Virus record (IMG/VR): IMGVR_UViG_3300031539_000241
Location: 1-28,003 of that record
Length of the DNA: 28,003 nucleotides
Direction: 5' to 3' (one strand)
Source: a virus
The notes under the pieces are model-generated. The model saw nothing but the letters and a program-made list of their open reading frames with translations. It was not told the origin of the DNA and searched no databases. A program made the translations under genes and the position numbers. Shown in pieces: positions 1 to 24,420 of this stretch; position 1 is the first letter of the stretch; the number at the start of each line of letters is the position of its first letter.

Positions 1-668
1 TTGCAGTCGGCGATAGCCTGTTCGTGATCGGGCTTCGCCTTCATCGTGTGCAAATCATCAAACGCCCGCATAAGGGCCTCTGCCGTCTTGACGGTCTTCT
101 GTCTCTGCGTCTTGATTCGGTCCTCGTCCGCGTCCCCGGCCGGCTCGCCGTGCGGGTGATGGCACTTGGCGCACGATACGTCGTCTTCGTCTTCGTCGTC
201 CCACTTGCTCCCGGCACAATTTGGGCATTTGCCGTAGTCGGGTTCGGTGGGCTCGGACACCGGCTCAGACTCAACGTCGATAGGGCCGGCGTCCGGCGGA
301 GTGGAGGCCGGCTTCGGCGGCTTCTTCCCACCGGCAGCAATGGCGGCTTTTCTGGCGGCCTTGGCGGCACCGTCTAAGGTTCCTTCGAGCATCAAAACCG
401 CCGACCTGGCTGCGCTTTTGATGCTCCCCATATCCCTGGAAAATTGCATATAAAACTGTGCTGTCCTTAGACTTCCGTCAAATAGGCGTTCGCACTCGCC
501 CTCCCACTTCTTGTGGGGTAGGGTCGATTTTGCGGCCAGCAGTTCTTGGCCAGTTTCCAGGGCGTGCTTTGTGGCTTCGCCGAGATCTTTCTGCACGTAG
601 GTGTGCAGTACATTTGCCTTACGAAAGTGCTCATGCACATCGATCGGTAGGTTGTTTTTGTTAGCCAT
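1..668 (-). CDS. DUF3102-like protein with C-terminal zinc ribbon (partial, runs off left edge)
   Basis: The reading frame opens at the ATG at 668 and stays open to the window edge (222 codons visible). Residues about 20-80 resemble the DUF3102 family of phage/plasmid proteins: a helical stretch with LETGQELLAAK, then PHKKWEGECE and SLRTAQFYMQFSR. The part specific to this full-length copy starts at residue 130 and holds CPNC and CAKC pairs separated by an acidic stretch, a probable zinc ribbon, then a basic helix. Its ATG overlaps the TAA of the preceding frame (ATGGCTAA), so translation is probably coupled. Its first 129 codons are duplicated upstream. The molecular role is unknown; the position beside ERF and an HNH nuclease suggests DNA metabolism. 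Confidence 0.75.
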   Translation of the reverse strand, partial: MANKNNLPIDVHEHFRKANVLHTYVQKDLGEATKHALETGQELLAAKSTLPHKKWEGECERLFDGSLRTAQFYMQFSRDMGSIKSAARSAVLMLEGTLDGAAKAARKAAIAAGGKKPPKPASTPPDAGPIDVESEPVSEPTEPDYGKCPNCAGSKWDDEDEDDVSCAKCHHPHGEPAGDADEDRIKTQRQKTVKTAEALMRAFDDLHTMKAKPDHEQAIADC

Positions 669-1135
669 CCGTGTCCTCTTGTTTTTCTAACCATCGTGAA
701 AAGCGACTAGGGCCGGCGTCCGGCGGAGTGGAGGCCGGCTTCGGCGGCTTCTTCCCACCGGCAGCAATGGCGGCTTTTCTGGCGGCCTTGGCGGCACCGT
801 CTAAGGTTCCTTCGAGCATCAAAACCGCCGACCTGGCTGCGCTTTTGATGCTCCCCATATCCCTGGAAAATTGCATATAAAACTGTGCTGTCCTTAGACT
901 TCCGTCAAATAGGCGTTCGCACTCGCCCTCCCACTTCTTGTGGGGTAGGGTCGATTTTGCGGCCAGCAGTTCTTGGCCAGTTTCCAGGGCGTGCTTTGTG
1001 GCTTCGCCGAGATCTTTCTGCACGTAGGTGTGCAGTACATTTGCCTTACGAAAGTGCTCATGCACATCGATCGGTAGGTTGTTTTTGTTAGCCATCCGTG
1101 TCCTCTTGTTTTTCTAACCATCGTGAAAAGCGACT
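281..1135. repeat. Exact tandem duplication, unit 427 bp
   Basis: Positions 281-708 and 708-1135 appear identical, sharing a single T at the junction. The unit covers the last 15 codons of the HNH gene, the ATGGCTAA overlap and the first 129 codons of the DUF3102-like gene. No differences were seen by eye, so the event is very recent or is an assembly artefact near the contig end. Confidence 0.93.
661..1095 (-). pseudogene. Truncated duplicate of the DUF3102-like gene
   Basis: This 144-codon frame starts at the ATG at 1095. Residues 1-129 are identical to the neighbouring gene at 1-668. It then switches at the duplication junction into the last 15 residues of the HNH protein (SRFSRWLEKQEDTDG) and stops. 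It therefore keeps the DUF3102-like domain but lacks the zinc ribbon. It overlaps both neighbours through the same ATGGCTAA motif, so it would be translated if the duplication is real. It is called a pseudogene because it is a by-product of the tandem duplication; a functional short isoform is possible. Confidence 0.7.
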
Positions 1136-1582
1136 CCCGACGATCCGCTCGAAATCCTCTTCCTCGACGTACTCGCGCAGTCCGCAGATTACGCCGCAGT
1201 AATACGCCGCGGTCTTCACACCGTCAAATCGTCGGTGGTCGCCTGACTCGACGGTGGTGACATACCAATCATGGCACCCGCGCCAATGTATTTTGAGCCA
1301 CAGCAGCCAGCCGGCCGCGTTCAGGTGCGGCGACGTGTCGGCGTTGAACGTGTGGCAGTGAGCGCAGAGACAGCAGCCGTTACGCAGTTCGTATCGTGTC
1401 GCTGCGTGTTGGCGAGGCACCAGGTGATGTGCCTGCAAACTGGTGCGCTTGCCACAGACGGCACATCGGTTGGCCCAATCGCCGCGGACGGCGAGGCTCC
1501 ACAGCCGGTCGGCCATGTCGCGCAAAACGCCCTTGGCCGGGATGTCCTTGTTTGTTCGCTTCCGTGGCCGCTTCCGTGCCAT
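1088..1582 (-). CDS. HNH nuclease of NinG/Rap type
   Basis: A 164-residue protein with a basic N-terminus, then a zinc-HNH core. C40 and C43 (CAVCG) pair with C73 and C76 (CAHCH), H52-H53 lie in LQAHHLVPR, N68 is in RNGC and H77 follows. This arrangement matches lambda NinG (Rap), a recombination endonuclease that acts on branched DNA in phage recombination. The ATG at 1582 is preferred over the TTG at 1618 because AGGAG lies about 10 bases upstream. It follows the ERF gene, a typical phage recombination pairing. Its last 15 codons fall inside the 427-bp duplication. Confidence 0.8.
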   Translation of the reverse strand: MARKRPRKRTNKDIPAKGVLRDMADRLWSLAVRGDWANRCAVCGKRTSLQAHHLVPRQHAATRYELRNGCCLCAHCHTFNADTSPHLNAAGWLLWLKIHWRGCHDWYVTTVESGDHRRFDGVKTAAYYCGVICGLREYVEEEDFERIVGSRFSRWLEKQEDTDG

Positions 1583-1624
1583 TGCGTCCGTGCTCCTAGC
1601 TGTTCGGCTTAAAGTCAAGCATCA

Positions 1625-2449
1625 TCATGGGTTCCTATGCGCTTCATGTGAGGCTTCTATCTGTTCGATCTCCTCGATTCGCATGCCGATACAGTTGGTG
1701 AGTTGCTTGTGTTCTACTTCAGCAAAGCCCCGTGTCTCTGCCCAGGCGAGCCACTTATGGCAGTCGGTCTCGCCCATGGTTTCCAGGCCCGGCGGTATCA
1801 GGGTGTAGAACCGGACGTTGGCCAGTGCCCGCAACTCCGCCAATGCTTTCTCGTTGCCGGCGAACTTGCCCGGCACGGCCCTATCGTACTTTTCGAGCGT
1901 GTCCAAGTCTGGCGCGTTGAATATCGCGGCCTTGGCTTTGGATATTCGTTGCTGTTCGGTGGGCGCGGGCGGGGTTGGCTTTGCGGCTGGTTCCCTGTTG
2001 CCGTTCTTCGGCTGCGCTGCCTTGCCGTCGTCGTCCTCTGGTGCTACCCCGACAATCGCCGATAGTGCGTATCTACGAGCGTAGGTAATAGCGGAGCCAA
2101 TCGCCTGCGGAGTGAACGTGTCGGGCCGCAGTGTCATATCGCTAGAGATAAACTGCCCGGACGAGTGCAGCAATATGGTCGTGACCACCACGACTCCACC
2201 ACCAGCCTGTGGTGCCTGCACGACGGACAGCCCATTGTCAGACAACGGCTGTCTGCACACCTCAATTACATTTGCGAGGTGGGCGTATTTGTAGCTGTAC
2301 TCGCCACCTGCCTTCATTTTCACTTTGGCGACTTCGCCCGCCACGAGAGTAGTGATACTGGCCTGGGCTTTGGCCAGTGCCGCTGCCAGGGCGTCTATGT
2401 TTTCACTCATTCTGACGGCTGGAATGACATGTTCTTGCGTCTCTACCAC
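1625..2449 (-). CDS. erf: ERF-family single-strand annealing protein
   Basis: A 274-residue protein with the ERF signature in its first half: YSYKYAHLANVIEVCRQPLSDNGL at about residues 51-74, then GSAITYARRYALSAIVGVAPEDDDG at about 118-142. ERF proteins anneal complementary single strands during phage recombination and genome circularisation. The rest is a Pro/Ala-rich linker and a helical C-terminal domain. The GTG at 2449 is chosen because GAGGAG sits 5 bases upstream, whereas the internal ATG at 2410 has no ribosome binding site. It lies in an operon with small upstream genes and the NinG-like nuclease. Confidence 0.9.
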   Translation of the reverse strand: MVETQEHVIPAVRMSENIDALAAALAKAQASITTLVAGEVAKVKMKAGGEYSYKYAHLANVIEVCRQPLSDNGLSVVQAPQAGGGVVVVTTILLHSSGQFISSDMTLRPDTFTPQAIGSAITYARRYALSAIVGVAPEDDDGKAAQPKNGNREPAAKPTPPAPTEQQRISKAKAAIFNAPDLDTLEKYDRAVPGKFAGNEKALAELRALANVRFYTLIPPGLETMGETDCHKWLAWAETRGFAEVEHKQLTNCIGMRIEEIEQIEASHEAHRNP

Positions 2450-2491
2450 GGCAACTCCTCCTCTATAGGTCTCTCGAGAATTTGTTTCTCA

Positions 2492-2692
2492 TCACTCTTC
2501 TTCCTCCGGGGCGTGTTCTTCGCACACTGGCTCACCTTTGTCAGACCAAATAGTGTCGTCTTCGCATCTGCCGGTCGGCTCGCCGCAGACGCTACAGAGT
2601 TGCAGTGTGCCGGGGTAATTCCCTGCGTTCCAGGCATCATGTTCACTCTGAAACATCGCGTGTCTGTAGCCGCCTGGCCAAGTGTTTTCCAT
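2492..2692 (-). CDS. Small putative zinc-binding protein
   Basis: A 66-residue protein with CSVC near the middle and a further C and CEEH toward the acidic C-terminus (CSVCGEPTGRCE, PVCEEH), probably one treble-clef-like zinc site. The ATG at 2692 overlaps the TGA of the upstream gene (TGATG), and GAGG lies about 10 bases before it. No specific family was recognised. The position in the recombination operon suggests an accessory DNA-metabolism role. Confidence 0.6.
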   Translation of the reverse strand: MENTWPGGYRHAMFQSEHDAWNAGNYPGTLQLCSVCGEPTGRCEDDTIWSDKGEPVCEEHAPEEEE

Positions 2693-2955
2693 CACGTCAG
2701 TCCCTCAATCGCATCTATGATTACCGCTGCCCTGGCCGCCACCGGCAAATACACGCCATCGTTCCGTTGGTGTATCTCCTTCGCCGCAAACAGTATCTCG
2801 GGTAGGGTGGCTGGGTCGGCAGCAATGGCCTGGACGACAATGCCTCTCGCCCTAATTGCATCGATATCGCGGGCATCGAGGTCGTCGCGAATCCAACTCG
2901 CATACTTGCGGATCAGTTCCCACTGCGGGTCGGCGGACGTTACGGGTTGGGTCAT
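2692..2955 (-). CDS. Hypothetical small helical protein
   Basis: An 87-residue protein with no recognised family. It looks mainly helical (WELIRKYASWIRDDLDARDIDAIRARG, then LPEILFAAKEI) with a hydrophobic C-terminal helix. The ATG at 2955 follows GGGAGGA at good spacing and overlaps the TGA of the preceding 59-codon gene (ATGA). The frame appears to continue upstream, but the overlap and ribosome binding site fix this start. Confidence 0.7.
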   Translation of the reverse strand: MTQPVTSADPQWELIRKYASWIRDDLDARDIDAIRARGIVVQAIAADPATLPEILFAAKEIHQRNDGVYLPVAARAAVIIDAIEGLT

Positions 2956-3131
2956 GGCTTCCTCCCCTGGTTCTCGTTCCAGTCCATTTCTTCCTCGATA
3001 TCGCACAGCGGCCTGCCGGTTTGCAAAGCCTTGCCCACGGCGTCGAGAGCTGCTTGCATTGCTTGTCCATGATGTAGGTCTACGATCAGGCCGCCGACCA
3101 GGACGGGAGGTTGTTTCGCTATGCAGACCAT
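2952..3131 (-). CDS. Hypothetical 59-residue protein, first gene of recombination operon
   Basis: A short gene with ATG at 3131 and AAGGAG 7 bases upstream; it ends in an ATGA overlap with the next gene. The protein has a hydrophobic N-terminus (VCIAKQPPVLVGGLIVDL), an amphipathic middle and an acidic end. No family was recognised. The strong ribosome binding site and coupled overlap support a real gene. It carries the CTAACAAGGAGA leader shared with two other sites in this arm. Confidence 0.65.
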   Translation of the reverse strand: MVCIAKQPPVLVGGLIVDLHHGQAMQAALDAVGKALQTGRPLCDIEEEMDWNENQGRKP

Positions 3132-3137
3132 GTTCGC

Positions 3138-3149
3138 TCTCCTTGTTAG
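3138..3149 (-). promoter_or_regulatory. Shared leader motif CTAACAAGGAGA (copy 1)
   Basis: This 12-base motif contains the Shine-Dalgarno sequence of the gene starting at 3131. The same 12 bases occur at 4782-4793 and 8376-8387. It contains ACAAGGA, close to the known CsrA-binding core ACARGGA, and csrA lies immediately upstream. Confidence 0.6.
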
Positions 3150-3157
3150 TGTAAATT

Positions 3158-3220
3158 CGCCCGCCGTCGTCAGAGGTTACACAGGTTTGCTCAACGGAGC
3201 GTGACGAGCGACGGCGGGCG
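3158..3220. repeat. 12-bp GC-rich inverted repeat upstream of recombination operon
   Basis: CGCCCGCCGTCG (3158-3169) is the exact reverse complement of CGACGGCGGGCG (3209-3220), with a 39-base loop. It lies between the csrA terminator and the first gene of the recombination operon, so it would form a structured 5' leader or a palindromic DNA site. Confidence 0.75.
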
Positions 3221-3235
3221 GTGGTGTAGGCAAAT

Positions 3236-3293
3236 GAAAAAACGCCCCGCCGCGTCCTGCGCGTACAACGAACGCAGGGCCCGGGGGGGCGTC
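3236..3293 (-). terminator. Rho-independent terminator after csrA
   Basis: On the minus strand a hairpin pairs ACGCCCC with GGGGCGT at the base and CCTGCG with CGCAGG inside. A run of six to seven T follows (plus-strand A run at 3237-3242). It sits 64 bases past the csrA stop. Confidence 0.75.
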
Positions 3294-3356
3294 TTTGTAT
3301 CGAGTTGGTTTTGTTGAGTCCGTTCATGGCTGTCCGTTGCCGTTTGTCCGTGGCCG

Positions 3357-3557
3357 CTACGTCTGCGGCCTAATTCTCGTTCGTCCGTCTCGTTGCAACA
3401 GGGCGAAAATCTCGCCCCGGTGAATCGGCACCTCTGGCGGTGCCTCGAAGCCCAGGCGTGCTCGATCGCGTTGCACGCCCAGCAGCGTAACAACGATGGG
3501 CTTGTCGCCGACAAGAATCACAACTGTCTCTGTCGGCTTTCTTGTAAATACGAGCAT
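3357..3557 (-). CDS. csrA: CsrA/RsmA-like RNA-binding translational regulator
   Basis: A 66-residue protein with the full CsrA layout: MLVFTRKPTETVVI at the start, LLGVQRDRARLGFEAP in the middle, then PEVPIHRGEI. R6 of strand 1 and R47 of the IHRGEI motif match the residues by which CsrA dimers contact GGA motifs in mRNA leaders. CsrA usually blocks or alters translation at Shine-Dalgarno sequences. The length is typical (about 61-70). AGGA lies just upstream of the ATG, and a terminator follows. The frame is open further upstream, but that extension lacks CsrA character. This is a phage-borne copy; it could act on host or phage transcripts. Confidence 0.88.
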   Translation of the reverse strand: MLVFTRKPTETVVILVGDKPIVVTLLGVQRDRARLGFEAPPEVPIHRGEIFALLQRDGRTRIRPQT

Positions 3558-3956
3558 CAACTTGGTCCTGACAAAAAAACACGCTAACCTCCGTGGTAAT
3601 AATACCCCGGGCAAAGCCGCAGCCATGCAGCCCGCCCGGATCACCTTTACCGGCGGCCGTGCCGGTTTGTTCAGGGCGTCGGCACCTCGACAACGCCCCA
3701 CTCGCTAATCATCAGGGGCCACCTCCACAGACCCCATTGCAGCACTCTTGTCAATCGTCTCCCTGCGTGCTACCGCAGGCAAGAACCGCACCATCGCGGC
3801 TGCTACAAGGGGAGCGGGCCGGATTTGCACCGACGACGTGCCTGTGACGAGCAAACCATCGCCACGCCGCCGCTCCAATACGAGAGAACAGATCATTTGG
3901 GTTTGTCTAGGTTATTTGTACCGATGGTAAGAATTAACTGAGCGATCTCGATCACA
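3558..3956. other. 399-bp gap: tRNA-like element, no convincing gene
   Basis: This gap contains the tRNA-like element at 3811-3876. A 13-codon minus-strand frame at 3671-3712 has GGAGG upstream of its ATG and could be a leader peptide for csrA; nothing else supports it. No promoter could be assigned with confidence. Confidence 0.5.
3811..3876 (-). tRNA. tRNA-like element 1 (possible Thr, anticodon CGT; lacks a normal D arm)
   Basis: Read on the minus strand: a perfect 7-bp acceptor stem (GGAGCGG with CCGCTCC), an anticodon arm GTTTG-CTCGTCA-CAGGC, a 5-base variable region, and a T arm GTCGG-TGCAAAT-CCGGC whose loop departs from TTCRANY. Only 13 bases separate the acceptor stem from the anticodon arm, so the D arm is missing or degenerate. 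The ends and flanks closely match the element at 4920-5003. Probably a decayed tRNA or tRNA mimic. Confidence 0.4.
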
Positions 3957-4502
3957 TCAAGGGTTTTGTCCGGAGCCGGAGCCGTCGCCGTAGCCGTAGC
4001 CGTAGCCGCCGTCGCCGTAGCCGGAGCCGTAGCCGGAGCCGGAGCCGTAGCCGGAGCCGTAGCCGGAGCCGGAGCCGTAGCCGTAGCCGTAGCCGTAGCC
4101 GGAGCCGTAGCCGGAGCCGGAGCCGTCGCCGTAGCCGTAGCCGTAGCCGTCGCCGCCGCCGTCGCCGTAGCCGGAGCCGTCGCCGTAGCCGTAGCCGGAG
4201 CCGTAGCCGTCGCCGTAGCCGGAGCCGTCGCCGTAGCCGTAGCCGGAGCCGTAGCCGGAGCCGTAGCCGGAGCCGGAGAATAGCCCTAATGGTATGGTGT
4301 TAATACAAATCGTCGGCACGCCCGATGATCGCAGCAGGTCGTCGATCAGGTCTTGATCCTGCATTCCTGAATGGTACGCCCAATGCAGCAGATCTGACGG
4401 CACGGCATCGATGGCCATCCCCGGCGTGAGTTGGGAGAGGCTCTCGCGACAGGCTCCGCGAAATTGAGCTTCGGTGATGTGAGCTGTTGTTAGGACGACC
4501 AC
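3957..4502 (-). CDS. Protein with long Gly-Ser/Tyr/Asp repeat tail
   Basis: 181 residues. The GTG start at 4502 is supported by GGGAGG about 7 bases upstream, and the gene overlaps the stop of the upstream DUF6948-like gene. Residues 1-75 are an ordinary folded-looking region (AQFRGACRESLSQL, SDLLHWAYHSGMQDQDLIDDLLRSSG). From residue 76 to the end, glycine alternates with Ser, Tyr or Asp, giving a tail of about 100 residues that ends in QNP. Every repeat glycine seems to be GGC, and the alternate codon is TCC, TAC or GAC. No family was recognised for the N-terminal part. The tail resembles low-complexity, sticky or flexible segments; its function is unknown. Confidence 0.75.
   Translation of the reverse strand: MVVLTTAHITEAQFRGACRESLSQLTPGMAIDAVPSDLLHWAYHSGMQDQDLIDDLLRSSGVPTICINTIPLGLFSGSGYGSGYGSGYGYGDGSGYGDGYGSGYGYGDGSGYGDGGGDGYGYGYGDGSGSGYGSGYGYGYGYGSGSGYGSGYGSGSGYGSGYGDGGYGYGYGDGSGSGQNP
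3970..4277. repeat. Hexanucleotide repeat tract encoding (G-S/Y/D)n
   Basis: About 300 bp of uninterrupted period-6 sequence. On the minus strand the unit is GGC followed by TCC, TAC or GAC, varying at only two bases. Such a tract is prone to replication slippage, and in-frame hexamer changes would alter tail length without breaking the gene. Confidence 0.92.
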
Positions 4503-5073: not shown

Positions 5074-6006
5074 TTAGTTGAGATCGAGCGGCGGCAACAC
5101 GTCGGCCGCCGTCTGCTCTTCCAACTGCGAGGTGTCGAGATAGTGTTCGCTCATATCGGTATGGTGCCCCAGTTGAGCAGAGGCCATTGCCCGGCCCCCG
5201 AACCGATAGGTCAGCGTGTAGCACGTTCGACGAACGCAGTGAAACATTCGCTCGCGTCCGTTGGGTAGCCCGGCCGTGCGGAGAATGGCTTTCAGTTGAA
5301 TGAATTTCTGCCGCCGGCCGTAGGGATACGGCCACACAAGTTCTCGGGCAAGATCGAAGTGACCGGCTATCGCGGCCACCGCCTGATCGTGCAGGTGGAC
5401 CACTTGTTCTTCTCCCGTTTTGCTGGAGTCGGCTCGCAATACCACCAGCCGCCTCAGCATCGACACGTCGGCCGAGCGAACTTGGAGGGCTGCTGATATC
5501 CTGGCACCGCTCCAATACAGGAAGATCATCAGCGAAGACCACCAGGCTGATCGCGAAATGCCGGTGCCCCGCATGTTGCCTCGCAACGAGCGACAAGTAG
5601 CAACAACTCGCTCGTATTCGTCTAATGTCCAGGCGACCGGCACCCGACGGGGCAATCTGATCGGCGGAATATCGGGCGGCGGCAATGAGGTGTACCCGTG
5701 CTTGTGTGCCCAACGCCAGATCGTCAGCACGTCGCCCCGCTCCCGTTTGACTGTCCGAGGCGACACTTCCTTGAGCCGGGCCCGGAGCCAGGGCAGCACA
5801 AGACTTTCCGACAACTCTGAGATTTTCAGTGGCCTGCCCGCGTGCCGTTCGAGCGAGCGGAGAGCGTAGCCGTATTGTGCGGCGGTAGAGTCCGATACCG
5901 AGAGGCGGTGTGGTAGATACACCGCGGCAAGAAACGCTGACAAGTTGTCTGGAGGGCAGTACACGGCTGATTCGGTCGCTGCTTGTCCACTTGTGCTTAT
6001 GCACAA
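5074..6006 (-). CDS. int: Tyrosine-family site-specific integrase
   Basis: 310 residues. An N-terminal SAM-like core-binding domain (about 20-100) precedes the catalytic domain. Catalytic residues in order: R169 in SGARISAAL, K196 in SSKTGE, H257 and R260 in HCVRRT, H281 in LGHHTD, and nucleophile Y289 in EHYLD. These enzymes join attP and attB through a phosphotyrosine intermediate. The start is uncertain: no ATG precedes the domain, TTG at 6006 and GTG at 5964 are possible, and neither has a clear ribosome binding site. The probable attachment site lies at 6783-6843, on the integrase side of the tRNA fragment's 3' end. Confidence 0.92.
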   Translation of the reverse strand: MCISTSGQAATESAVYCPPDNLSAFLAAVYLPHRLSVSDSTAAQYGYALRSLERHAGRPLKISELSESLVLPWLRARLKEVSPRTVKRERGDVLTIWRWAHKHGYTSLPPPDIPPIRLPRRVPVAWTLDEYERVVATCRSLRGNMRGTGISRSAWWSSLMIFLYWSGARISAALQVRSADVSMLRRLVVLRADSSKTGEEQVVHLHDQAVAAIAGHFDLARELVWPYPYGRRQKFIQLKAILRTAGLPNGRERMFHCVRRTCYTLTYRFGGRAMASAQLGHHTDMSEHYLDTSQLEEQTAADVLPPLDLN

Positions 6007-6371: not shown

Positions 6372-6662
6372 TTAGCCCGCTGCTGTCAAGCCAGCCTCGG
6401 CCGAATTCGTCTCTTTTTCATGGATTTCTTTTCGCGGTGGCTGCATGAGAAGATCCACCGAGGTATCTAGCGCTTCGGCAATTCGGCCTAAAATCCCCGG
6501 TGCCGAGCCACTTTCGCCGCGGTATACGCGGCCGATAGCAGTCGGGTGGTCTCCGGTTTTCAGTGCAAGTTGCCGTTGCGGTATTTCCCGGTCCCGGAGA
6601 ATACGCTGGAGATTCGCCGCGATATTCTTCACGGCCTGTTCATTGGTGAGCATGGTTGCCAT
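6372..6662 (-). CDS. XRE-family helix-turn-helix repressor-like protein 1
   Basis: 96 residues. An N-terminal HTH of the Cro/cI (XRE) type spans about residues 12-70: IAANLQRILRDREIPQRQLALKTGDHPTAIGRVYRGESGSAPGILGRIAEALDTSVDLLM. A short polar tail follows, with no protease domain. Probably a lysogeny regulator. Either the ATG at 6662 (about 6 bases after a -10 element, so probably leaderless) or the ATG at 6653 (AGGA 9 bases upstream) may be the start. It lies between the attachment site and the integrase. Confidence 0.85.
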   Translation of the reverse strand: MATMLTNEQAVKNIAANLQRILRDREIPQRQLALKTGDHPTAIGRVYRGESGSAPGILGRIAEALDTSVDLLMQPPRKEIHEKETNSAEAGLTAAG

Positions 6663-9315: not shown

Positions 9316-9540
9316 TTATCTTTTGGGGGGGGAGTACGGCAAAAGCAGAGCGGAAACGCTGATATCCAGTGCTCCGGCAATCGCCGTCAGCGTATCCAGC
9401 AGGGGGCTGTAGTGCCCGTTTTCGAGGTCACAGACGGTCTGCTGCCGCTTTCCTGCCATATCCGCAACGGCCTGCTGAGAGAGGCCCAGTTCGAGCCGGC
9501 GGGCCCGGACGCTAGCACCGATGGTGTGTGACTTGCTCAT
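9316..9540 (-). CDS. XRE-family helix-turn-helix repressor-like protein 2
   Basis: 74 residues, essentially only an HTH domain: GASVRARRLELGLSQQAVADMAGKRQQTVCDLENGHYSPLLDTLTAIAGALDISVSALL. The recognition-helix region is KRQQTVCDLENG. Cro/cI-size regulator with no dimerisation or cleavage domain. The ATG at 9540 lies only 6 bases after the -10 box, so the message is probably leaderless, as for lambda cI. The two TCGGA palindromes next to it are candidate operators. Confidence 0.88.
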   Translation of the reverse strand: MSKSHTIGASVRARRLELGLSQQAVADMAGKRQQTVCDLENGHYSPLLDTLTAIAGALDISVSALLLPYSPPKR

Positions 9541-9546
9541 AATTAG

Positions 9547-9575
9547 GTTATACGATATTTCGGCTAGCGTGTCAA
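9547..9575 (-). promoter_or_regulatory. Strong promoter for repressor 2, leaderless message
   Basis: Consensus TTGACA (9570-9575), a 17-base spacer and TATAAC (9547-9552), then 6 bases to the ATG. The expected +1 falls at or next to the start codon, and no Shine-Dalgarno sequence can fit. Confidence 0.8.
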
Positions 9576-9665
9576 GGGCCGATTGACACGGCGGGGTTGT
9601 TTTTTGGAACTGTTGACAGCCACCGGCCCCGCGTGGTAAGTTGGAGGGATGTAGGGAGAATTGTC

Positions 9666-21814: not shown

Positions 21815-23363
21815 TGACGGTTTCCTCTTTTTTTCCGGGCTTGGCGACAACGGCAACTTCCCCGGGCTTCCCGCCAGGGTTGCCGGGCGGATCTGCCGGC
21901 TTCTCGTCAACCAGCCCGGCTTTCTCTTTGAGCTTCTTCTCGCGAGCGAGCGTCATGTAGTGGCTTTCGATTGTCTTGCCGTCTGTTGCCAACACGTCGG
22001 TCATCGTGGCCGATCCGTTTGTCAGCTTCTTGTCGTCTGCGCTGGCTTCCTTCAAGCGATCGACGTGCGGTCGCGTCGGCCAGGTCCACTTGTAGACGAC
22101 CTTCTTTGGCCGGTTGCGTAGCCCAGGGACTGAGAACCGGCCTTCCTTGGCGATCTCGTCCACCAGGCGGTTGAGCGTGCCGTAGCTCTTCTCCGTGCCG
22201 CTGATCCAGTTTTGGATACCGGCCACCGCCCGGGCGTAACTTTGCGTGTCGAGCCGAGCCGACGAATAGTTGTGACCGCTCGAATCAAGCCGGATCATCA
22301 GCAGGGGCATACCGACCGGGCGACCAAGTTCGCGCATCCGTTCGCCGCGGTAATCGGGGTATTGCACCGGCGGTTGGCTGGCCGGCAGAACAAACGGCTT
22401 CCAGCCGGGTGGGCTCATCCTGATCGTGCGACGTTCGTAGGTTGAATTTTCCGGGACTTCCCAAATCACCTCAGGATTCTCGCAATACAGTAGCGTGGAC
22501 TGGTCGGCCATCAGTCGGGCCGCGTCCATCACCTGGGCGTCATAGTCCCGAAGGTCGGCCGATGGCTGCAACGCTGTATTGAGCCAGGGAATACCGCGAG
22601 CCTGGTCTTCCTCTTCGCTGATGAATTCGTGGATGATATCTTCAGCCGGCACCTGGTCAAACTGATCGAAGGTTGCCAATTGTGTGGGCAACGATTGTGG
22701 CTTCTGAATGTAATAGGTGGCCGGACGACCAAGCCCATCGAAGCGGATACCCATAAAGACGTTGGGGTCGCCGGTCATGCCCATCGGCGTGCTCAGCCAT
22801 CGCGGATGCTGCGGTCGAATCCGCAAACTGATCGGGCCATCGGCGTTGGGCAGCGTGATCAGTTGTGCCAAAAACTCGCCCGTTTTCCACGGGCCGCGAA
22901 CCCAGCTTTTCAATAGCGATGTGCCAGACACGTTTGGCTTGTGCGTCGGGGCATAAAACCAATCCCGCCACGTATCCTCGAGCGCCGTGTTGTATTTGTC
23001 GTCGTCGCTGATTACCTGAAGGGCGGGCCCGTCGGGTCCCACGATATCGTCAATGTGTGTGTTGATGATTCCAAGAACCATGCCGTTCTGACGTGGCTCG
23101 TACGTCGATCGGGCTCGCATCCCGGCAAGTTTGCTTTGCAGCCAGACATTTACCGATTGATCGTCGGCATCCCGCCAGTGAGCCTGATTCAACCGCGTCG
23201 TTTCGGCCGACTCGAAACTGCGGGTCGAGTGGCCGCCACCACCCCACACTGGATGACTGACGTAGCGGACCGAGGTGTCAACCGAAGACGCTGCGATAGC
23301 AGGCAACGCGGGGATCGAACCCAACGAAAGCGTGTCGACGGTCGTGTTTTGGAACTGGGTCAT
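21807..23363 (-). CDS. Portal protein, lambda family
   Basis: 518 residues. STRSFESAETTRLNQAHWRDADDQSVNVWL, then LGIINTHIDDIVGPDG and HEFISEEEDQARGIPWLNTALQPSADLRDYDAQVMDAARLMADQ match lambda gpB-type portals (the RGIPWL and DLRDYD segments are diagnostic). The portal forms the dodecameric DNA channel at one capsid vertex. The C-terminus is Lys/Pro-rich. Its ATG overlaps the upstream TGA and its stop overlaps the protease-capsid start, so translation is coupled. Confidence 0.92.
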   Translation of the reverse strand: MTQFQNTTVDTLSLGSIPALPAIAASSVDTSVRYVSHPVWGGGGHSTRSFESAETTRLNQAHWRDADDQSVNVWLQSKLAGMRARSTYEPRQNGMVLGIINTHIDDIVGPDGPALQVISDDDKYNTALEDTWRDWFYAPTHKPNVSGTSLLKSWVRGPWKTGEFLAQLITLPNADGPISLRIRPQHPRWLSTPMGMTGDPNVFMGIRFDGLGRPATYYIQKPQSLPTQLATFDQFDQVPAEDIIHEFISEEEDQARGIPWLNTALQPSADLRDYDAQVMDAARLMADQSTLLYCENPEVIWEVPENSTYERRTIRMSPPGWKPFVLPASQPPVQYPDYRGERMRELGRPVGMPLLMIRLDSSGHNYSSARLDTQSYARAVAGIQNWISGTEKSYGTLNRLVDEIAKEGRFSVPGLRNRPKKVVYKWTWPTRPHVDRLKEASADDKKLTNGSATMTDVLATDGKTIESHYMTLAREKKLKEKAGLVDEKPADPPGNPGGKPGEVAVVAKPGKKEETVNA

Positions 23364-23659
23364 GCGTACTCACTCGTGGCGTCGGCCCGAGCGTAGGTGA
23401 CTTTCATCTGCTGGAGGCCGGAAGATGCCGACGTGATGGCCGACTTGAGGGCCCGGCATTGGGCAATCAGGCCGTCAATCGCCTCGGAGTTCCACGAGAT
23501 GCCTTGCGAACCGGCCCCGCCCATCGAACGAGTGAGGTTCGGCGTGGTGGCCAGTTGTGCCTTCATGTCCATCAAGGCACCAATCGCCGCGTCGTAATCG
23601 GCGGCACGGCGCGCGGTCTTGTACTCGGCATAGAGCGTGGTTAGCTCGGCAATGCTCAT
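23360..23659 (-). CDS. Small gpW-like head-tail connector
   Basis: 99 residues, helical: SIAELTTLYAEYKTARRAADYDAAIGALMDMKAQLA, then EAIDGLIAQCRALKSAITSASSGLQQMKVTYARAD. Size, composition and location immediately before the portal match lambda gpW, which stabilises the filled head and joins the tail; the sequence match itself is weak. ATGA overlap with the portal gene. Confidence 0.6.
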   Translation of the reverse strand: MSIAELTTLYAEYKTARRAADYDAAIGALMDMKAQLATTPNLTRSMGGAGSQGISWNSEAIDGLIAQCRALKSAITSASSGLQQMKVTYARADATSEYA

Positions 23660-23702
23660 ATTGCCAAGCCTACAGAAGAAAAGGCGGGTCTATAACTGCA
23701 AC

Positions 23703-23742
23703 GTGATAGGGTCTATCACTTCGGTTGGCGGCGTGGTATAAT
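23703..23742 (+). promoter_or_regulatory. Promoter and operator of the inserted plus-strand gene
   Basis: A perfect -10 box TATAAT (23737-23742) is preceded by TG at the extended -10 position. GTGATAG-GGT-CTATCAC (23703-23719) is a perfect 7-bp-arm palindrome overlapping the -35 position, a probable operator. Confidence 0.8.
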
Positions 23743-23761
23743 GCGGCAAAGGAGAATAATC

Positions 23762-24022
23762 ATGTTCAATCCAGACACATACGTAATAGAAGACGCGGTG
23801 GCCGAGATACTCCACCGCGATGGCCTAATGAGCCTTGCCGACGCGCGTCTCCTTGGAAATGCCGTTGCCGGCGCTGGTCGCGAACAGCTTGAGCACTGGC
23901 TACTCGGCCTTGCGACAGATCGTGGCACGCCCAATGAGGCCAAACTGGCCGCTGCCGTCCTTGGGCTAATGAACGCTCGCGACCGCGACCAGGAATGCGA
24001 AGAAGAAGAAGGATGTATCTAG
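23762..24022 (+). CDS. Moron-like hypothetical protein
   Basis: 86 residues. ATG at 23762 with AGGAG 8 bases upstream. Helical (DTYVIEDAVAEILHRDGLMSLADARLLGNAVAGAGREQLEHWLLGLA, NEAKLAAAVLGLM) with an acidic tail ending ECEEEEGCI. No family was recognised. It is the only plus-strand gene inside the late operon and has a dedicated promoter and palindromic operator. It overlaps the convergent zinc-ribbon gene by 4 bases. This is the layout of a moron, expressed from the prophage independently of late genes. Confidence 0.75.
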   Translation: MFNPDTYVIEDAVAEILHRDGLMSLADARLLGNAVAGAGREQLEHWLLGLATDRGTPNEAKLAAAVLGLMNARDRDQECEEEEGCI

Positions 24023-24420
24023 TCCGCCCGAGCCCGCTTGAATCGCGTCTTGCACTTTTTACACTGATACCGGCGAACGGTTGCCAGTGAGTGGGTGACG
24101 CGAACTTGATCTGATTTGCAGTCGGGGCAAAGATGCCTCTTGATGAGCGTATAGTCACCAGCCGGCGGATCTTCGACCTCGGGCGGCGAGTCTATTGGGG
24201 TAACAGCGGGAGCGTGTCCGTTGCCATTTGAGACAGAGGCCGACACCTCCTTGAAAAAGAACTCGTTGCCACACGCCCGGCAGTAGGCAAGGCCGGAATC
24301 CCACCACCCCGGTTGGCCGTTGACCGGCGGTGGCTTCGGCTCGCTGGTGATCTCGCTGTCCGTGCAGCCGCAACGCGGGCACTCCGGGCCAGTGCATCGA
24401 TCTAGGCGAAGATAGGTCAT
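24019..24420 (-). CDS. Double zinc-ribbon protein
   Basis: 133 residues with two ribbons: CPRCG/CRACG (about 14-51) and CPDCK/CKKCK (about 98-123), joined by a Pro/Glu-rich linker. The ATG at 24420 overlaps the upstream TGA (ATGA). It resembles small nucleic-acid-binding ribbons; no family was assigned. It lies between terminase and portal, where head-packaging accessory genes are common. Confidence 0.7.
   Translation of the reverse strand: MTYLRLDRCTGPECPRCGCTDSEITSEPKPPPVNGQPGWWDSGLAYCRACGNEFFFKEVSASVSNGNGHAPAVTPIDSPPEVEDPPAGDYTLIKRHLCPDCKSDQVRVTHSLATVRRYQCKKCKTRFKRARAD

Follow-up and report, generated by a model that had tools for sequence, protein, structure and literature searches.

Why does a single plus-strand gene interrupt a run of late genes encoded on the opposite strand, and to which promoter does the palindrome beside it belong? 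The stretch of DNA analyzed (the window), a 28,003-base virus record from IMG/VR, encodes two XRE-type regulators and an integrase, along with a GpA-type terminase and a portal protein of the lambda type. The gene in question, ORF86, is the sole plus-strand gene between minus-strand genes at 23360-23659 and 24019-24420. An initial annotation described it as a moron with its own extended -10 promoter, and took the palindrome to be its operator. The explanation that best accounts for the locus overall, to which we assign a probability of about 0.6, is that ORF86 is a moron expressed in lysogens and carried in a cargo hotspot, with the palindrome belonging to an older head promoter. The elements of ORF86 given in the annotation were all present when the sequence was reread, and the features of the locus are the following:

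23360-23659, minus strand: gene for a 99-aa protein with which the head operon begins, assigned to the gpW position by synteny and profile hits in relatives.
23667-23672, minus strand: predicted -10 hexamer TAGGCT for the head operon, separated by 30 bp from the palindrome and by 7 bp from the start codon that follows; most relatives have a hexamer at this offset.
23703-23719, no strand: perfect 17-bp palindrome GTGATAG-GGT-CTATCAC, at the same position and spacing in relatives and in single copy per record.
23720-24018, no strand: 299-bp inserted module containing only the promoter, ribosome site and ORF86; the zinc-ribbon stop typically lies 0-10 bp from the palindrome in relatives.
23734-23742, plus strand: extended -10 TGGTATAAT of the predicted ORF86 promoter, without a -35 box, the single match in the window.
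23748-23754, plus strand: Shine-Dalgarno sequence AAAGGAG of ORF86, read directly from the sequence.
23762-24022, plus strand: ORF86, the inserted cargo (moron) gene of 86 aa, supported by its ATG and Shine-Dalgarno, its codon-position G+C and its absence from relatives.
24019-24420, minus strand: gene for a zinc-ribbon protein, the conserved left border of the slot, supported by a profile match, alignment and relatives.

Two observations concern other parts of the window. Near its left end are near-identical frames at 467-694 and 894-1121 (span 467-1121, about 427 bp apart), which suggests a tandem duplication or an assembly artefact. A minus-strand frame at 3957-4502 encodes 181 aa dominated by Gly-Tyr, Gly-Ser and Gly-Asp repeats (GSGYGSGYGDG...).

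ORF86 extends from an ATG at 23762 to a TAG at 24020-24022, its stop overlapping that of the zinc-ribbon gene in CTAG, and encodes a protein with a pI of 4.35 and an acidic tail. Coding is supported by the Shine-Dalgarno sequence and by G+C contents of 0.76, 0.41 and 0.58 at the three codon positions. The third-position value lies below that of most phage genes (largely 0.65-0.77; XRE 1 has 0.57), and overall G+C is similar to that of the phage. As the initial annotation had it, the 86-residue protein has no recognized family: we found no homologues in viral contigs, genome contigs, isolated phages, plasmids, Pfam, PHROGs or PADLOC, and searches against NCBIfam and PDB sequences returned only non-significant rows. 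A single-sequence structure model contains four helices (mean pLDDT 74), and Foldseek retrieved no match to it below E 1. Such an orphan could be junk DNA in which promoter-like features and an open frame happen to fall together: when the insert was shuffled by mononucleotides 5000 times, 175 of the shuffles (3.5%) produced an ATG frame of 80 aa or longer, and the codon-usage score is ambiguous, the ORF86 frame scoring no better than two of the other five. However, chance would need to supply a consensus extended -10, a Shine-Dalgarno and a start codon in proper spacing, as well as the codon-position pattern and a frame that fills the insert almost exactly, and we see hardly any likelihood of this. 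Given its promoter, ribosome site and codon-position pattern, ORF86 is almost certainly a real gene.

By sequence, ORF86 has a promoter of its own, TGGTATAAT, together with a properly spaced Shine-Dalgarno; no -35 box is present. The motif TGNTATAAT occurs once in the 28-kb window versus 0.15 expected, and 14 of 100 shuffles contained at least one copy. On the plus strand, no intrinsic terminator-like site was found from ORF86 to about 27,047. This, together with the placement of the late genes on the opposite strand, raises the alternative that RNA is the product: a long transcript from the promoter would run antisense through the zinc-ribbon and terminase genes and keep late genes silent in lysogens, and ORF86 would be incidental. 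An incidental frame fits poorly with the good ribosome site and coding-like codon-position pattern of ORF86, with an insert that the gene takes up nearly end to end, or with the unrelated proteins that occupy the slot in other phages; we regard this alternative as distinctly improbable.

We next consider how the locus compares with its relatives. Portal-based searches of viral contigs yielded 54 usable non-redundant loci, consisting of the window and 53 uncultured relatives; the best portal matches in isolated phages are about 25% identical. A portal-profile search of genome contigs found no host genome, and the literature gave nothing usable on the LexA box of the likely host. Most relatives keep the zinc-ribbon gene, the gpW-position gene and the portal gene in this order; for the 99-aa gene at 23360-23659, which has no Pfam gpW match, the gpW name is given by position only. 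ORF86 is absent from every relative while its neighbors are retained, and it is therefore not the conserved virion component that would speak against a moron. The annotation had also placed it between two structural genes: both flanks are indeed on the minus strand, but the upstream neighbor encodes a zinc-ribbon protein not known to be structural.

The zinc-ribbon stop is 299 bp from the palindrome in the window, versus usually within about 10 bp in relatives with a recognizable palindrome, and the 43 bp from the palindrome to the gpW-position gene are unchanged. Since the ORF86 module fills the 299-bp gap and the 43-bp distance is preserved, ORF86 was inserted upstream of an existing palindrome. 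L002, L004 and L005 are too distant or differently arranged to date this insertion. We consider it very probable that the architecture is that of a moron module that was inserted in reverse orientation, with the zinc-ribbon gene on one side and the promoter of the head operon on the other. ORF86 shares with phage morons, as defined after Juhala and Hendrix (PMC2920897), the position of an extra gene between genes adjacent in relatives and an own promoter; its third-position G+C is below that of most phage genes but close to that of XRE 1. Hotspots with differing cargo are likewise known for morons. It differs in that no terminator was found (a feature described as usual, not obligatory; PMC2920897), in that its promoter abuts a conserved late-promoter site and in that it has no homologue elsewhere. 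The moron reading of the initial annotation is thus supported by an opposite-strand insertion absent from all relatives, by a third-position G+C lower than in most phage genes and by a self-contained predicted promoter and ribosome site.

The palindrome requires a different interpretation. In 28 kb, chance would supply about 1.7 perfect 7-3-7 palindromes of whatever sequence (28003/4^7), so that the presence of one is not significant in itself; significance comes from conservation in relatives. In 22 of the 54 loci, the window included (21 of 53 relatives), a 7-3-7 palindrome in which at least six of seven arm pairs match stops 41-47 bp short of the start of the gpW-position gene; many relatives are without a recognizable palindrome. 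Perfect palindromes number 15 at 42-48 bp and three at 49-55 bp, and no other 7-bp bin holds as many as three. The consensus sequence reads GTTACAG-N3-CTGTAAC. In several phages the arms differ in sequence but the dyad is kept; the window is among them, its palindrome departing from the consensus and agreeing with it at 8 of 12 arm positions. With one mismatch allowed, TTACAG-N3-CTGTAA was present exactly once in all 12 records tested (12-59 kb), at the head-gene site as far as positions were matched. Moreover, a -10-like hexamer (about TAnnCT) follows the palindrome by 29-31 bp in 24 of 33 loci, compared with at most six for offsets centered at 1-28. In L072, this spacing is kept although the start codon is 113 bp away.

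From its conserved position, single copy and fixed spacing to the hexamer, we take the palindrome to be the probable upstream element of a conserved promoter for the head operon, a dyad centered about 52 bp before a leaderless-type start and older than the ORF86 insertion. We favor a DNA site over an RNA hairpin, because the sequence of the arms is conserved and imperfect copies recur at this location. The proposal that the palindrome is the moron's own operator therefore gives way to a putative head-promoter site that relatives share and that would predate the insertion. The same evidence bears on the suggestion that XRE 1 or XRE 2 represses ORF86 at this site. Both are repressor-type HTH proteins and the palindrome, at 23703-23719, overlaps the -35 region of the ORF86 promoter, but the window contains no further copy, whether near an XRE gene or elsewhere, the palindrome upstream of XRE 2 is a different one, and relatives have the site once per record, linked to the head gene. 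As judged from these sequences, XRE binding at the palindrome is unsupported, and XRE repression of ORF86 very unlikely.

Several related observations were made at other promoters. The palindrome upstream of XRE 2 is a perfect 8-7-8 repeat, CGTGTCAA-N7-TTGACACG, at 9568-9590, between XRE 2 (9316-9540, minus strand) and a divergent plus-strand gene near 9651; it is likely the XRE 2 operator. TAnnnT-like hexamers lie 5-10 bases before the start codons of xre1 (6372-6662), xre2 (9316-9540) and int (5074-6006), all on the minus strand and without a Shine-Dalgarno. The gpW-position gene shows the same arrangement, and this phage may commonly make leaderless transcripts. In L031 (3120-3260) and L033 (2915-3060), a palindrome with a shortened spacer (TTACAGATCTGTAA) precedes another inverted repeat (TTTACA...TGTAAA) and a TATACC hexamer; this may be a version of the promoter with two sites.

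Which protein might bind the palindrome is suggested by its surroundings. By neighborhood and partial co-occurrence, the zinc-ribbon protein is a candidate: in seven records searched, five have both the gene and the palindrome and two (L087, L091) have neither. L015, L064 and L075 keep the gene without the palindrome. The layout recalls the late promoters of P2, whose Ogr site is centered near -55. P2 late promoters are activated by the zinc-finger protein Ogr at a dyad of the form TGT-N12-ACA (PMC3931495). Both have an upstream dyad at a fixed distance from a late -10, no evident -35 and a zinc-ribbon protein encoded nearby. This resemblance is one of layout only: the dyad here is TTACAG-N3-CTGTAA, there is one site per genome versus four promoters in P2, and the zinc-ribbon protein has no Ogr/Delta match in Pfam.

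P2-like phages also offer a contrasting model, in which the palindrome would be a packaging (cos) or recombination site with cargo collecting beside it. Dyad symmetry and a single copy per record are compatible with this, and the hotspots of P2 and P4 adjoin cos (PMC9122126). A cos site would not account for the -10-like hexamer at a constant 30-32 bp from the palindrome, including in L072 with its start codon 113 bp off, and among the relatives' contigs examined none starts or stops at the palindrome, although this last point is weak evidence. We consider a cos or recombination site improbable, and retain the head-promoter assignment.

The junction into which ORF86 was inserted holds other genes in relatives. 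Inserts lie at this junction in L036, L047, L048, L051, L056 and L084, with cargo unrelated among phages; those of L036, L084 and L051 are same-strand genes. Unrelated reverse-strand cargo with sigma70-like promoters is found in L025/L048 (two genes behind TTGACA-17-TAACCT), in L047 (an HTH_17 gene whose start codon follows a TATAAT by six bases, plus further reverse-strand frames) and in L056 (five genes behind TTGACG-16-TAAGAT); these promoter-like sequences were found by eye in few cases, with no shuffle comparison. In L048 and L056, the zinc-ribbon gene is still present on the far side of the cargo. Gene order and sequence mark the slot as a hotspot where phages of this clade have repeatedly acquired cargo.

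The cargo of L056 adjoins the palindrome (283-3800 of its record, L103) and includes matches to a TIR effector (3e-8), to a HEC-09/NYN nuclease (4e-7; Pfam NYN, 3e-12) and, weakly, to PadR. The L056 insert is about 11 kb; reverse-strand cargo, with a lower third-position G+C, makes up only the 3.6 kb or so nearest the palindrome. We view these genes as a candidate defence module of an uncultured phage. Like known defence hotspots, the slot holds variable cargo between two conserved phage genes, defence-like genes included; it differs in clade and site, lying beside a head-operon promoter, and in that defence-like cargo is recognizable only in L056.

The cargo of relatives also informs whether ORF86 could instead be a late or virion-associated gene, co-activated with the head operon through a shared palindrome. 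The palindrome stands next to the ORF86 promoter, centered at about -38, near the position of a class II activator site. However, it is 17 bp from the ORF86 -10 and not at the conserved 30-32 bp of the head promoter, the extended -10 is perfect, transcription from the terminase side would run antisense to ORF86, and in L025 and L056 the promoter-like hexamers of the reverse-strand cargo are separate from the palindrome and at some distance from it. Co-activation, like the antisense-RNA alternative, thus has little probability in our estimation, and we proceed with the lysogen-expressed moron.

A precedent for such a gene is Tab of Pseudomonas phage JBD26, an 83-aa protein encoded on the minus strand between the terminase genes, with its own promoter and constitutive anti-phage defence activity (PMC10884400). 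ORF86 resembles it in size (86 versus 83 aa), reverse-strand placement, own promoter and location among packaging genes of the late operon. The two have no sequence similarity (no BLASTP alignment at E up to 100), and ORF86 lies between the zinc-ribbon and gpW-position genes, whereas Tab lies between terminase genes; Tab phages encode a separate anti-Tab protein, and no anti-Tab partner was identified for ORF86. Defence or exclusion is the role we favor for ORF86, because of the L056 cargo and Tab. With TIR-effector-like and NYN-like genes in L056 and the Tab precedent (PMC10884400), such a role is plausible by analogy; as an assignment of function to ORF86 itself, it is tentative, at somewhat less than even odds.

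We propose that host RNA polymerase would most likely recognize the extended -10 and transcribe ORF86 with no need for late factors of the phage. Transcription independent of the late genes would leave ORF86 on in lysogens, provided that the phage, which has an integrase gene, is temperate; the protein would benefit the lysogen, most plausibly through defence or superinfection exclusion. Because the palindrome covers the -35 region and is centered about 38 bp before the predicted ORF86 transcript start, a late factor bound there would more likely block ORF86 than help it once the head genes are on. We speculate that the shared site couples cargo and late genes, with a late factor on the palindrome starting the head operon and simultaneously covering the ORF86 promoter, a possibility that we hold to be rather unlikely. 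If true, a cargo protein that harms assembly would be off exactly when the head genes turn on; phages with Tab rely on the separate anti-Tab protein for this purpose.

ORF86 itself belongs to a known kind, the moron; what is new is its slot beside a conserved head-promoter module, and we found no earlier description in the open-access literature. The revised reading of the palindrome defines a conserved, single-copy head-promoter module and an adjacent cargo slot in a clade without close isolates. The order zinc ribbon, cargo, TTACAG-N3-CTGTAA, TAnnCT, head gene provides a signature by which new lysogen-expressed genes may be found, and some genes in the slot already resemble defence proteins.
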